Source: a virus
DNA length: 20,219 nt
Strand: one strand, 5' to 3'
IMG/VR virus record: IMGVR_UViG_3300039106_000353
Span: 1 to 20,219 of that record
Part shown: positions 618-14,809 of the stretch, one piece after another
Layout: every line of letters starts with the position of its first letter
Position numbering within the stretch: position 1 is the first letter of the stretch
Position numbers and translations under genes: made by a program
Notes under the pieces: model-generated
Database searches by the model: none
Seen by the model: only the letters and a program-made list of their open reading frames with translations
What the model was told of the DNA's origin: nothing

Positions 618-1412
618 TTATAGGCAGTTGGGGCATTTTGTGACGGTGTTGTCGGGTAAAAATATCCAGCTGTTTCGGCAGTCGGGGTTGTTGCATGGTT
701 CGGTGGGTTTGGGTTGTTCGGGTTCTTTTTGCTCTAAAGGTTGGTTGGGTTCGTCGAGGTATCGTTCTTGGTTGAGCCAGGTGATTGGGTGGGCGGTGTA
801 TTGTGGGTCTTCGTTTTTGCGTCGGAGTGCATAGATGTGGGCTGCGCTAATAACAATTTGTGGGTCTACGGTTAGGGCTATCCGGTTGAATTTCTTTTTG
901 CATACTCCTTTGCCTTCTTTGCGTGGGTAGATCGCCCAGAACTCATCAAATTCCAAATCGAATGATTTGGATGAGAGAGGTTCTTTTGGTTTCTTCTTGG
1001 GTTCTATTGGGTTAGTGCTACCTGTGGTAGCGGGTGGTGTAACGTCAGGTAGCGGGTGGTGTAACGTGACGTTACGGGTGGTGCTACCTACGGTTACGGG
1101 CTGTGGATAACCTGGGGGTGTGGTTCGGGACTCATAGATAACCGGTGCATCAACAAAAACGAACCTGTACAAATTCGTTCCTCCTGGGCGTTCTTTCTCT
1201 AACACCAAAAATCCATCTGCGACGATTTTGCTTACAGCAAAAGAGGCGGTCTTTCGGGCCACCCGACTTTTGTTTGCGAGTTTCGCTATGGACATCCAGA
1301 ACGTGTTGTGGTTCTGATCGTTCACGCTGTCAGCTATTGCTAGATGGATTGCGAACTCTGCGCCTGTGTAAGGGGAGTGTCGATACACGTACCCCATTGC
1401 TTCCATGCTCAT
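618..1412 (-). CDS. Phage replication initiator / helicase-loader-like protein (winged HTH, zinc ribbon)
   Basis: This 264-residue protein probably starts phage DNA replication by binding the origin and recruiting a helicase, like lambda O or DnaD-type proteins. Residues about 15-90 look like a winged helix-turn-helix (SIAKLANKSRVARKTAS, then a beta-wing around GGTNLYRFVF). Residues 91-145 form a Pro/Thr/Lys-rich linker. Residues 155-221 carry the pattern FDEFWAIYPRK...HPITWLNQERYLDE, seen in many phage replication proteins. The C-terminus has a zinc-ribbon-like set, C240, C245, C260, C263. The start is ATG at 1412 with a purine-rich stretch (GAGAGAAAGAAG) 5 nt or more upstream; a second ATG lies two codons inside. 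It is the only leftward gene and is divergent from the terminase. The linker-coding DNA carries repeats and a DnaA box, so the gene probably contains its own origin. The general class is fairly sure; the exact partner is not. Confidence 0.8.
   Translation of the reverse strand: MSMEAMGYVYRHSPYTGAEFAIHLAIADSVNDQNHNTFWMSIAKLANKSRVARKTASFAVSKIVADGFLVLEKERPGGTNLYRFVFVDAPVIYESRTTPPGYPQPVTVGSTTRNVTLHHPLPDVTPPATTGSTNPIEPKKKPKEPLSSKSFDLEFDEFWAIYPRKEGKGVCKKKFNRIALTVDPQIVISAAHIYALRRKNEDPQYTAHPITWLNQERYLDEPNQPLEQKEPEQPKPTEPCNNPDCRNSWIFLPDNTVTKCPNCL
953..970. repeat. Perfect inverted repeat in the replication gene
   Basis: CCAAATC-GAAT-GATTTGG has 7-bp arms and a 4-base centre. It lies about 35-55 bp from the tandem 22-bp repeats, in a locally A+T-richer, strand-asymmetric stretch (945-1008). 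Together these resemble the parts of a phage origin, though a single small dyad could be chance. Confidence 0.45.
1004..1113. repeat. Tandem 22-bp repeats (iteron-like) inside the replication gene
   Basis: Units start at 1026, 1048, 1070 and 1092, exactly 22 bp apart, with a degenerate one at 1004. The first two share GGTAGCGGGTGGTGTAACGT and differ at one base of 22. The third keeps CGGGTGGTG with changed arms, and the fourth keeps GGTTACGGG. Junctions between units form perfect dyads: GCTACCTGTGGTAGC (1017-1031) and GTAACGTGACGTTAC (1061-1075). Because 22 is not a multiple of three, each copy is read in a different frame and the protein is not repetitive here. Selection therefore appears to act on the DNA. 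Iterons inside an initiator gene are the known design of the lambda-type origin; that this is an origin is inference. Confidence 0.8.
1102..1110 (-). promoter_or_regulatory. DnaA box
   Basis: The minus strand reads TTATCCACA, the exact strong DnaA-box consensus. It sits within the last 22-bp repeat of the iteron-like array. One 9-mer could occur by chance, but its position in the array supports a role in recruiting host DnaA to a phage origin. Confidence 0.55.
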
Positions 1413-4469: not shown

Positions 4470-6236
4470 ATGCGATCAATTGAAGAAATAGTTGCACTGT
4501 ACAACCATCGTCGTCGCTCGCTCGGCCCTGTTCATCAACAGATGCAACGAGTACGAGAACTAGCCAACGGCGACATTGTTGTACCTCTCAACGAGTTAGA
4601 TCGCAACGCCAAATCTTCTGTTGCTAACCTGCTTGTTCAAGGTTTAGATCAGATGTCAATGCGAATATCGTCAACGATGCCCGCACCATACTTCCCACCA
4701 TTCAGGGAAGGTTCAGAACGATCCAAAGAAATGGCAAACCTACGCAAAAAAGCGATGCTGTCCATTTGGGATCAGAACCGTATGAACATGAAAATGCGTC
4801 GACGTGCCAGACACTTCCTCGCATACGCTTCAGCACCAGTGATCCTGAAGCCTGACTTCAAAACACTTACCCCAAAGTGGCATGTTCGTAACCCGTTAGA
4901 TACTTTCCCTTGCCCATCAGACGATCCGGACAACCCTGTCCCATACGACTGCATTTTCACTTACCGCAAACCGTATTCGTGGCTAGTGATGAACTACGGC
5001 AACCTCGTTGACGGTCGTCTGCGTTTAGGTCAAGTTGAATACGACACCATGTTCACCATCATTGAATACATTGACGAACACGAACTTGTACTCGGTGTTA
5101 TCGGTGCTGAAGACAACCCGCAACTCACACAATACGAACGATCAGGTTTAGATTTCATTGAACTAGAACGCATCATCAACCGTACCGGTATGCCGTTATG
5201 TGTCGTTCCGCAACGCATCACTCTTGACCGCCCTCACGGACAGTTCGATGGTCTTATGGGAATGTTCTATACACGAGCAAGACTGCAAGCTCTCACCGAA
5301 ATTGCTATTGAACGAGGCATTTTCCCTGACGAATATTTGGTTGCCCGCCCAGGCGAAAACCCCGAAATCTTGCAAGTCGCTGACGGTAAAACAGGATTGC
5401 TCGGTGTTGTCAAGGGTGGCGACCTACAAATTCAGCAAGTCAACCCTGGATATAAAACTGATACTGCGCTTGACCGTTTGGAACGCCAAGAACGACTTGA
5501 AGGTTCTATCCCCGCAGAGTTCGGTGGAGAATCAGGAACAAACATTCGTACAGGTCGGCGTGGAGAAAACGTGCTTTCTGCTACTGTTGACTTCCGTGTT
5601 CAGGAAGCACAAGAAGTGTTCGCTACTTCTATTCTTGAAGAAGACAAGATCGCTATTGCTATCGAGAAGTCGTATTGGGGCGACACACCTAAAATGTTTT
5701 TCCTTCCAGGTAAAGCAACTGTCGGCAAAGTTGATTACACACCAAACAAAATTTGGGAAACAGACTTTCACTATGTTGCATATTCGGCGGCAGGTTCAGA
5801 TGTCAACAACCTGATTGTCGGTTTAGGTCAGCGTGTCGGTACAGGATTGATGTCTAAGGAATCTGCTCGTGAAGCCGATCCGCTTATCAGCGATCCCGAT
5901 ATGGAACATGACCGCATTATCGGTGAAGGTGTCGAAGCAGCTTTGCTGTCATCAATTCAGCAGCAGGCCGCCAGCCCGCAGTCACCGTATCAACCTGCCG
6001 ATCTCGCATCGTTGGTCAAAAAGGTTTTGGTGGAAAACAAATCGTTGTTTGACGCTGTATCTGAAGTTGATTCCGCAGCTAAAGAACGTCAGGCCGCTGA
6101 AGCACCGCAGGGCGCACCTGAAACTATGCCAGGTCTTGCACCTCCAGGTATGGGGGCTGAACAACCTGTTGCTCCACCGGAAGGCGCACAGGGTCAACCT
6201 GATATCCAGTCGTTACTTGCTCAATTGGGGGGCTAA
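4470..6236 (+). CDS. Portal protein
   Basis: A 588-residue protein that would form the ring at one capsid vertex through which DNA enters and leaves, and that docks the terminase. Evidence is the position between terminase and capsid genes, the size, and the overall make-up: a mixed alpha/beta body (DGIVVPLNE-like N-terminus; RNPLDTFPCPSDDPDNPVPYDCIFTYRKP around 140-170; a region about 330-390 with KGGDLQIQQVNPGYKTD then RLERQERLEGSIPAEFGG, as in portal stem/crown segments). The last about 80 residues are Q/P/A-rich and probably disordered (PQGAPETMPGLAPPGMG). No catalytic motif is expected. The ATG start lacks a clear Shine-Dalgarno site. The next gene starts directly after its stop. The call is likely, but rests partly on synteny. 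Confidence 0.8.
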   Translation: MRSIEEIVALYNHRRRSLGPVHQQMQRVRELANGDIVVPLNELDRNAKSSVANLLVQGLDQMSMRISSTMPAPYFPPFREGSERSKEMANLRKKAMLSIWDQNRMNMKMRRRARHFLAYASAPVILKPDFKTLTPKWHVRNPLDTFPCPSDDPDNPVPYDCIFTYRKPYSWLVMNYGNLVDGRLRLGQVEYDTMFTIIEYIDEHELVLGVIGAEDNPQLTQYERSGLDFIELERIINRTGMPLCVVPQRITLDRPHGQFDGLMGMFYTRARLQALTEIAIERGIFPDEYLVARPGENPEILQVADGKTGLLGVVKGGDLQIQQVNPGYKTDTALDRLERQERLEGSIPAEFGGESGTNIRTGRRGENVLSATVDFRVQEAQEVFATSILEEDKIAIAIEKSYWGDTPKMFFLPGKATVGKVDYTPNKIWETDFHYVAYSAAGSDVNNLIVGLGQRVGTGLMSKESAREADPLISDPDMEHDRIIGEGVEAALLSSIQQQAASPQSPYQPADLASLVKKVLVENKSLFDAVSEVDSAAKERQAAEAPQGAPETMPGLAPPGMGAEQPVAPPEGAQGQPDIQSLLAQLGG

Positions 6237-14397: not shown

Positions 14398-14809
14398 ACA
14401 AGAAACAGGCCGAAATCCTCTGCGTGATCGCATGAAGCAGCTTGAATCGGAAAACGCAGCACTGAAGGTAAGGGCCGACGAAGCCTCTAACGCCGCACGT
14501 GAACTAGCTTTCGTAAGAGCAGGAGTTGATTCTGCCGATCCGTTGGCCAAGTATTTCGTGAAGGCTTATGACGGTGAACTTTCCCCTGATGCTATTAGAG
14601 CCGCTGCTATCGAAGCGAGACTCATCCAAGATACTAAGGCTGCACAGGTAGCGCAGGAAGCTAAAGGTTGGGACAGAACCAACCAGGCCGCTTCCGGTAA
14701 CACTGTTGGTGAAGCCCCTGTGGATATGGTGACTCGGATCAGTAAGGCTACTAGCCAAGCTGAGATTGAGATGTTGCTGGAAGAAGTAAGGTCTCTCCAA
14801 CAAAACTAG
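14372..14809 (+). CDS. Capsid scaffold protein
   Basis: A 145-residue protein. The N-terminus is acidic (MDSDIEFDEQE), followed by a coiled coil (MKQLESENAALKVRADEASN, about 22-41), then ELAFVRAGVDSADPLAKYFVKAYDGELSPDAI, a pattern common in actinophage scaffold proteins, and a final helix (EIEMLLEEVRSLQQ). Acidic, helical, small, and immediately before the capsid protein: the usual scaffold profile. It would shape the procapsid and leave before DNA packaging. A strong site, AAAGGAG (14358-14364), lies seven bases before the ATG. The gene stands 18 bp before the capsid gene in the same transcript. Confidence 0.85.
   Translation: MDSDIEFDEQETGRNPLRDRMKQLESENAALKVRADEASNAARELAFVRAGVDSADPLAKYFVKAYDGELSPDAIRAAAIEARLIQDTKAAQVAQEAKGWDRTNQAASGNTVGEAPVDMVTRISKATSQAEIEMLLEEVRSLQQN

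Follow-up and report, generated by a model that had tools for sequence, protein, structure and literature searches.

A probable replication origin of lambda design inside the initiator gene of a phage with a presumed actinobacterial host

Introduction

Can the gene for a phage replication initiator also hold the origin at which the initiator acts? The question is raised by a locus in virus record IMGVR_UViG_3300039106_000353 from IMG/VR. We analyzed bases 1–20,219 of this 37,573-base record, referred to here as the window. A preliminary description had proposed an origin inside the replication gene, and our sequence-level checks (repeats in relatives, synonymous depletion, and domain layout) support that proposal. 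We consider it very likely that window positions 945–1110 are a phage replication origin of the lambda design, in which the origin lies inside gene O. The phage, whose host is an uncultured actinobacterium, would then have an origin located closely enough to be tested. See Table 1 for the features and their coordinates.

Table 1. Features of the initiator gene and the candidate origin (window coordinates)
Feature	Position	Strand	Remarks
Replication initiator gene, 264 aa	618–1412	-	phrog_270 / O-like N-terminus, primosomal C-domain; PHROGs and AlphaFold model
Winged helix DNA-binding domain, residues 1–88	1149–1412	-	pLDDT ~75–94 by block; PDB fold matches
Disordered linker carrying the array, residues 89–147	972–1148	-	pLDDT ~30–47
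Helical C-domain, residues 152–226	735–959	-	pLDDT ~79–89; primosomal / DnaD-like profile matches
Putative zinc ribbon CNNPDC...CPNC, C-terminus	624–698	-	Two cysteine pairs, kept in L002–L004
Perfect DnaA box TTATCCACA	1102–1110	-	Sole exact copy in record; identical in L002–L005
Iteron 1 dyad GTAACC-GTA-GGTAGC	1083–1097	-	
Iteron 2 dyad GTAACG-TCA-CGTTAC	1061–1075	-	Perfect halves
Iteron 3 dyad GCTACC-TGA-CGTTAC	1039–1053	-	
Iteron 4 dyad GCTACC-ACA-GGTAGC	1017–1031	-	Perfect halves
A-rich tract, candidate unwinding element	972–1016	-	Between iterons and hairpin
Hairpin TCCAAATC-GAAT-GATTTGGA	952–971		8-bp perfect stem, 4-nt loop
Block without synonymous change, codons 130–156	945–1025	-	Five genomes; longest such run, permutation P 0.0036

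Results

The phage and its initiator protein

Two WhiB-family genes and a capsid closest to those of Streptomyces phages indicate an actinobacterial host, in keeping with the earlier reading of the genome as actinophage-like. The WhiB genes lie at 14419–14691 and 14983–15366 of L009, a part of the same record. The record encodes a RecE-like exonuclease, an annealing protein, and SSB. In the record, which is possibly incomplete, there was no match to DnaB (DnaB_C) families, to IstB/DnaC-like loader families, or to tyrosine-integrase families. Since neither a DnaB-type helicase nor a DnaC-like loader was found, the phage probably uses the host replisome. A comparison with plasmid DNA gave no match, and within positions 1–1700 there was no Rfam match and no promoter signal above chance. 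Elsewhere in the record, at L009 16480–18843 (record ~34.5–36.8 kb), several small minus-strand genes share an upstream DNA element whose translation reads RDYSPIPV...; we take it to resemble the start-associated repeats of some mycobacteriophages.

The best overall profile match of the initiator in PHROGs is phrog_270, "replication initiation protein" (E 4e-24), which spans most of the protein (residues 17–237 of 264). The N-terminus matches phrog_6643, 8540, and 391, and the O-like families matched by the protein are 391, 8540, and 678. Residues 142–227 match phrog_9327, "primosomal protein" (E 2e-14). No match to lambda O's own family (phrog_277 / PF04492 Phage_rep_O) was reported at E values up to 1, and sequence searches of the PDB and NCBIfam gave no match of any kind. 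An AlphaFold model was built from a 21-sequence alignment, the five close sequences alone having given an unusable model with a pLDDT of 33. The cysteine-pair tail is weakly modelled. A fold search with the whole model was dominated by residues 2–90, and the matches listed are to the winged helix alone. The best of these are generic regulators; N-domains of staphylococcal plasmid initiators (4pql, Z 8.4; 4pt7, Z 8.3) and the Rep-DNA complex 5kbj are also among the matches. The C-domain is a probable helicase-recruiting module, a role read only from the profile names.

Anatomy of the iteron array

The array lies entirely within the low-confidence linker of the model. Self-identity at a lag of 22 is 0.625 over 1004–1113, compared with a best of 0.52 in 300 shuffles of the segment and 0.56 over 150 shuffled genes. 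All the elements first reported are present in this linker DNA, namely four 22-bp repeats and a perfect DnaA box, and units 1026–1047 and 1048–1069 are indeed identical at 21 of 22 bases. The 22-bp period stands, but its natural units are four 15-bp dyads separated by the 7-bp spacer ACCACCC (ACTAACC after the last dyad), and the supposed degenerate unit starting at 1004 marks the array's edge. The probable origin also continues past 1004 to ~945 and takes in an A-rich tract and a hairpin that had been overlooked. Along the coding strand, the DnaA box TTATCCACA comes first, followed by iterons 1 to 4, the A-rich tract, and the hairpin. Each iteron contains a dyad, with 94 of 120 half-site positions symmetric across five genomes, and the motif occurs nowhere else in the 37.5-kb record.

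The A-rich tract directly beside the array has 41% A on the coding strand and 63% A+T over gene nucleotides 398–470. The DNA close to the array is least stable here; the instability is modest (z +1.6, ~94th percentile of the record). The hairpin, TCCAAATC-ATTC-GATTTGGA on the coding strand, lies 45 nt past the last dyad and is the only perfect stem of at least 8 bp with a loop of 3–8 in the record. It is invariant in five genomes; because it overlaps codons at the edge of the C-domain (SFDLEF), constraint on the encoded protein may account for part of this.

From this layout, we propose that winged-helix domain dimers of the initiator most likely bind the four dyads, which, about two helical turns apart, would present themselves on the same face of the DNA. 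Once assembled, this complex would melt the A-rich tract that separates array and hairpin. The C-domain would bring in the replicative helicase of the host, a source we propose because the record shows neither a DnaB-type helicase nor a DnaC-like loader. Host DnaA, bound at the box beside iteron 1, may assist in melting the DNA or in loading the helicase, with the chances about evenly balanced.

Conservation at the DNA level

Four close relatives (L002–L005) were found in IMG/VR, with 90–97% protein identity, and all four keep the array, DnaA box, A-rich tract, and hairpin. A scan of viral contigs by DNA pattern returned the same four and nothing further. The tests of DNA-level conservation cover five close genomes. 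Synonymous change was seen at 5 of 61 synonymous-capable codons within codons 98–158 versus 58 of 162 elsewhere (P 2e-5). Amino acids changed at 7 of 37 positions in the linker versus 7 of 97 in the DNA-binding domain (P 0.06). Synonymous sites are thus depleted of change, and the amino acids of the linker are no less variable than those of the DNA-binding domain; selection therefore acts on the DNA, as had been argued from the frame-shifting period. The suggested check in homologs gave a consistent picture: besides the close relatives, distant homologs have arrays at these codons, with sequences unrelated to the one here.

These data bear on whether the repeats are simply a repetitive protein linker. 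Repeats in coding sequence have periods that are multiples of three, and many of the surveyed homologs whose periods are divisible by three may be of this kind. The other strong arrays in the record have periods of 15, 30, 36, and 42, and only this one departs from the rule. Here, the 22-bp period changes the frame at each copy and the encoded peptides differ, and the codon analysis contradicts a protein-level cause, as synonymous sites are the depleted class. We regard this explanation as extremely improbable.

Since 22 is not a multiple of three, the iterons are read in phases 0, 1, 2, and 0, which brings a risk of in-frame stops: GTAAC contains TAA, and GGTARC contains TAA or TAG. Of the eight half-sites, just two would bring a stop triplet into frame: iteron 2 right and iteron 3 left. 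Both are spelled without the stop, as CGTTAC and GCTACC, respectively, and both spellings are fixed in the five genomes. The remaining half-sites comprise four that vary and two that are also invariant, namely GTAACG on the left of iteron 2 and GGTAGC on the right of iteron 4. That the stop-free spelling occurs exactly at both in-frame half-sites suggests that the reading frame at least partly explains these two spellings. The pattern illustrates how one stretch of DNA can serve protein binding and all three reading frames.

GC skew and a nearby palindrome cluster

Cumulative GC skew, proposed earlier as a check, places its minimum in the neighborhood of the array but not at it, and so lends support to the neighborhood, not to the array as such. 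The minimum lies at window ~100, at ~6200 in L002, and at ~7100 in L003, which is ~0.8–1.0 kb from the array in the window and ~1.7 kb in L003. Each time it is at or beside a cluster of palindromes. In the window, this cluster comprises four perfect GAAC-N4-GTTC palindromes in 113 bp (79–191), with 0.5 expected in the whole window, and it is conserved in L002 (6193–6272) and L003 (6931–7069). In L003, an extra gene separates the array from the palindromes, and the skew minimum stays with the palindromes. Placement of the origin by GC skew alone was rejected, as the minimum follows the cluster. Either forks diverge at the cluster or strong early transcription starts there.

The extra gene of L003 (5698–6570, between the initiator and the palindromes) is possibly PAPS-reductase-like, as judged by eye; its start is also present in L004, and the gene is absent from the window. 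Downstream of the initiator, a non-coding stretch at window ~420–560 is conserved in L002 (~5830–5990) and also in L003, beyond the extra gene, and has no Rfam match.

The skew raises the possibility that the dyads are autoregulatory operators of the initiator and that the start of replication is at another site, such as the palindromes at which the skew switches. The minimum does sit on conserved clusters in three genomes, and the L003 switch falls inside a run of genes in the same direction, such that gene orientation alone is no explanation. On the other hand, operators normally lie upstream of a gene and not in its linker-coding part, and the array is followed by an A-rich tract and a hairpin as in lambda. 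Furthermore, the 79–191 motif matches the LexA consensus CGAAC-N4-GTTCG, quoted for Bacillus (PMC4551915), and this match suggests regulation at the cluster. LexA possibly controls early genes through 79–191, as in phage GIL01. Taken together, we judge the operator explanation improbable and retain an origin at the array, our confidence in which is not higher mainly because the skew minimum sits at the palindromes.

A survey of initiator lineages

A survey of phage records, viral contigs, and ~1,500 bacterial genomes yielded 95 initiator genes belonging to 70 lineages. Mid-gene tandem periodicity was significant in roughly 52 of the 70, most commonly with a period of 21–25 (21 lineages). Twenty of the 52 have frame-shifting periods, hence DNA-level repeats; the periods of the other 32 are multiples of three and maybe include protein repeats. 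The test misses diverged arrays, as lambda itself fails with a 66-base window (22 of 200 shuffles) and passes with 44. An inverted repeat follows the array (p 0.01) in 7 of the 52, versus about half a case expected. The mid-gene arrays in most surveyed homologs suggest that origins within initiator genes extend far beyond lambda, and such arrays could serve to map origins from sequence alone.

The DnaA box

The DnaA box lies at the outer edge of the array, next to iteron 1, and is conserved there; 0.33 exact copies would be expected in the record. Its nine bases are invariant in five genomes despite a 6-nt insertion beside the box that separates two subgroups. Across the survey, exact boxes occur in the initiator linkers of 3 of 70 lineages and in none outside linkers, compared with an average of 0.13 lineages for anagrams of the box, 9 of 1680 of which reach three. 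Besides the phage studied here, the lineages are L036, from a Mariprofundales bin, with an exact box directly beside a 21-bp array, and L028, whose linker (2335–2425) has two exact boxes in opposite orientation around repeated GATGCACAGTGTG motifs. Thus, the claim that a lambda-style origin with a DnaA box is unusual holds for the box but not for the intragenic array, which is common. The combination is rare, not unique, and probably no accident. We found no paper describing it in a search without most subscription journals, so this absence proves little.

Exact boxes in three unrelated initiator lineages are candidates for a recurrent, apparently undescribed subclass of origin, in which a lambda-type intragenic array is joined by a DnaA box and the initiator of the host chromosome would have a direct part in starting phage replication. 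We put this forward tentatively, at a little under an even chance. A contrary explanation, to which we also give slightly less than an even chance, is that the box is incidental: the origin would be of lambda type and work without DnaA, and the match would stem from the degenerate edge of an iteron (GTTA + CCACA), which also encodes YPQ. The box takes the place of an ACCACCC spacer and looks like an iteron junction that has been expanded, and 67 of 70 lineages have no exact box. In lambda, moreover, DnaA is described as acting through pR transcription and competition for DnaB, with DnaA boxes near pO (PMC7466680, PMC3985674). Against an incidental match stand the invariance of the nine bases despite the adjacent insertion and the independent boxes in the linkers of L036 and L028. 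The box could be partly a by-product of iteron-like sequence (GTTA...CCACA). Its presence makes direct recruitment of DnaA by some lambda-type phages a testable question.

Comparison with known systems

A close parallel is the lambda origin inside gene O, whose iterons, as the preliminary description noted, are in the same place. Applied to lambda, our analysis found the parts in the order and at the spacing seen here. Midway through the lambda initiator gene are four dyad iterons, spaced by about two helical turns, and next to them is an A-rich tract; the inverted repeat follows 43 nt beyond the final iteron, compared with 45 nt in our phage when measured with the same script. Unlike lambda, the iteron sequence is unrelated, the initiator has no reported phrog_277 / PF04492 match, and a DnaA box adjoins the array, with none in lambda O. 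Lambda also has a separate P-like loader; in our record, which is possibly incomplete, no IstB/DnaC-like loader was found.

Arthrobacter phages Melons, PhluffyCoco, and their relatives have a homologous initiator (~25% identity), whose gene likewise holds a 22-bp array over the same codons (~102–133). However, their iteron core, AACGGGGTGnCA, is unrelated and there is no exact DnaA box, although PhluffyCoco has a one-mismatch box, CGTGGATAA, beside its array. SPP1 oriL, inside gene 38, likewise has direct repeats and an AT-rich region within the initiator gene (PMC6316719), but in SPP1 the loader and the helicase are phage-encoded (gp39 and gp40).

Among plasmids, the RepA_N members pSK41 and pTZ2162 have initiators with a winged-helix N-domain of similar fold and semi-palindromic iterons, and pSK41 is listed among plasmids with an origin inside the rep gene. 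These are plasmid initiators, however, and the fold match reflects a common domain and is no sign of membership. The iteron plasmids P1, F, RK2, and pSC101 combine initiator iterons with a DnaA box (PMC3155836), but their direct-repeat iterons bind monomers (PMC5043065) and their origins are not described as inside the initiator gene. Judged by sequence, the origin proposed here is of a known design, the lambda-type intragenic one, and the exact DnaA box appears to be its rarer part.
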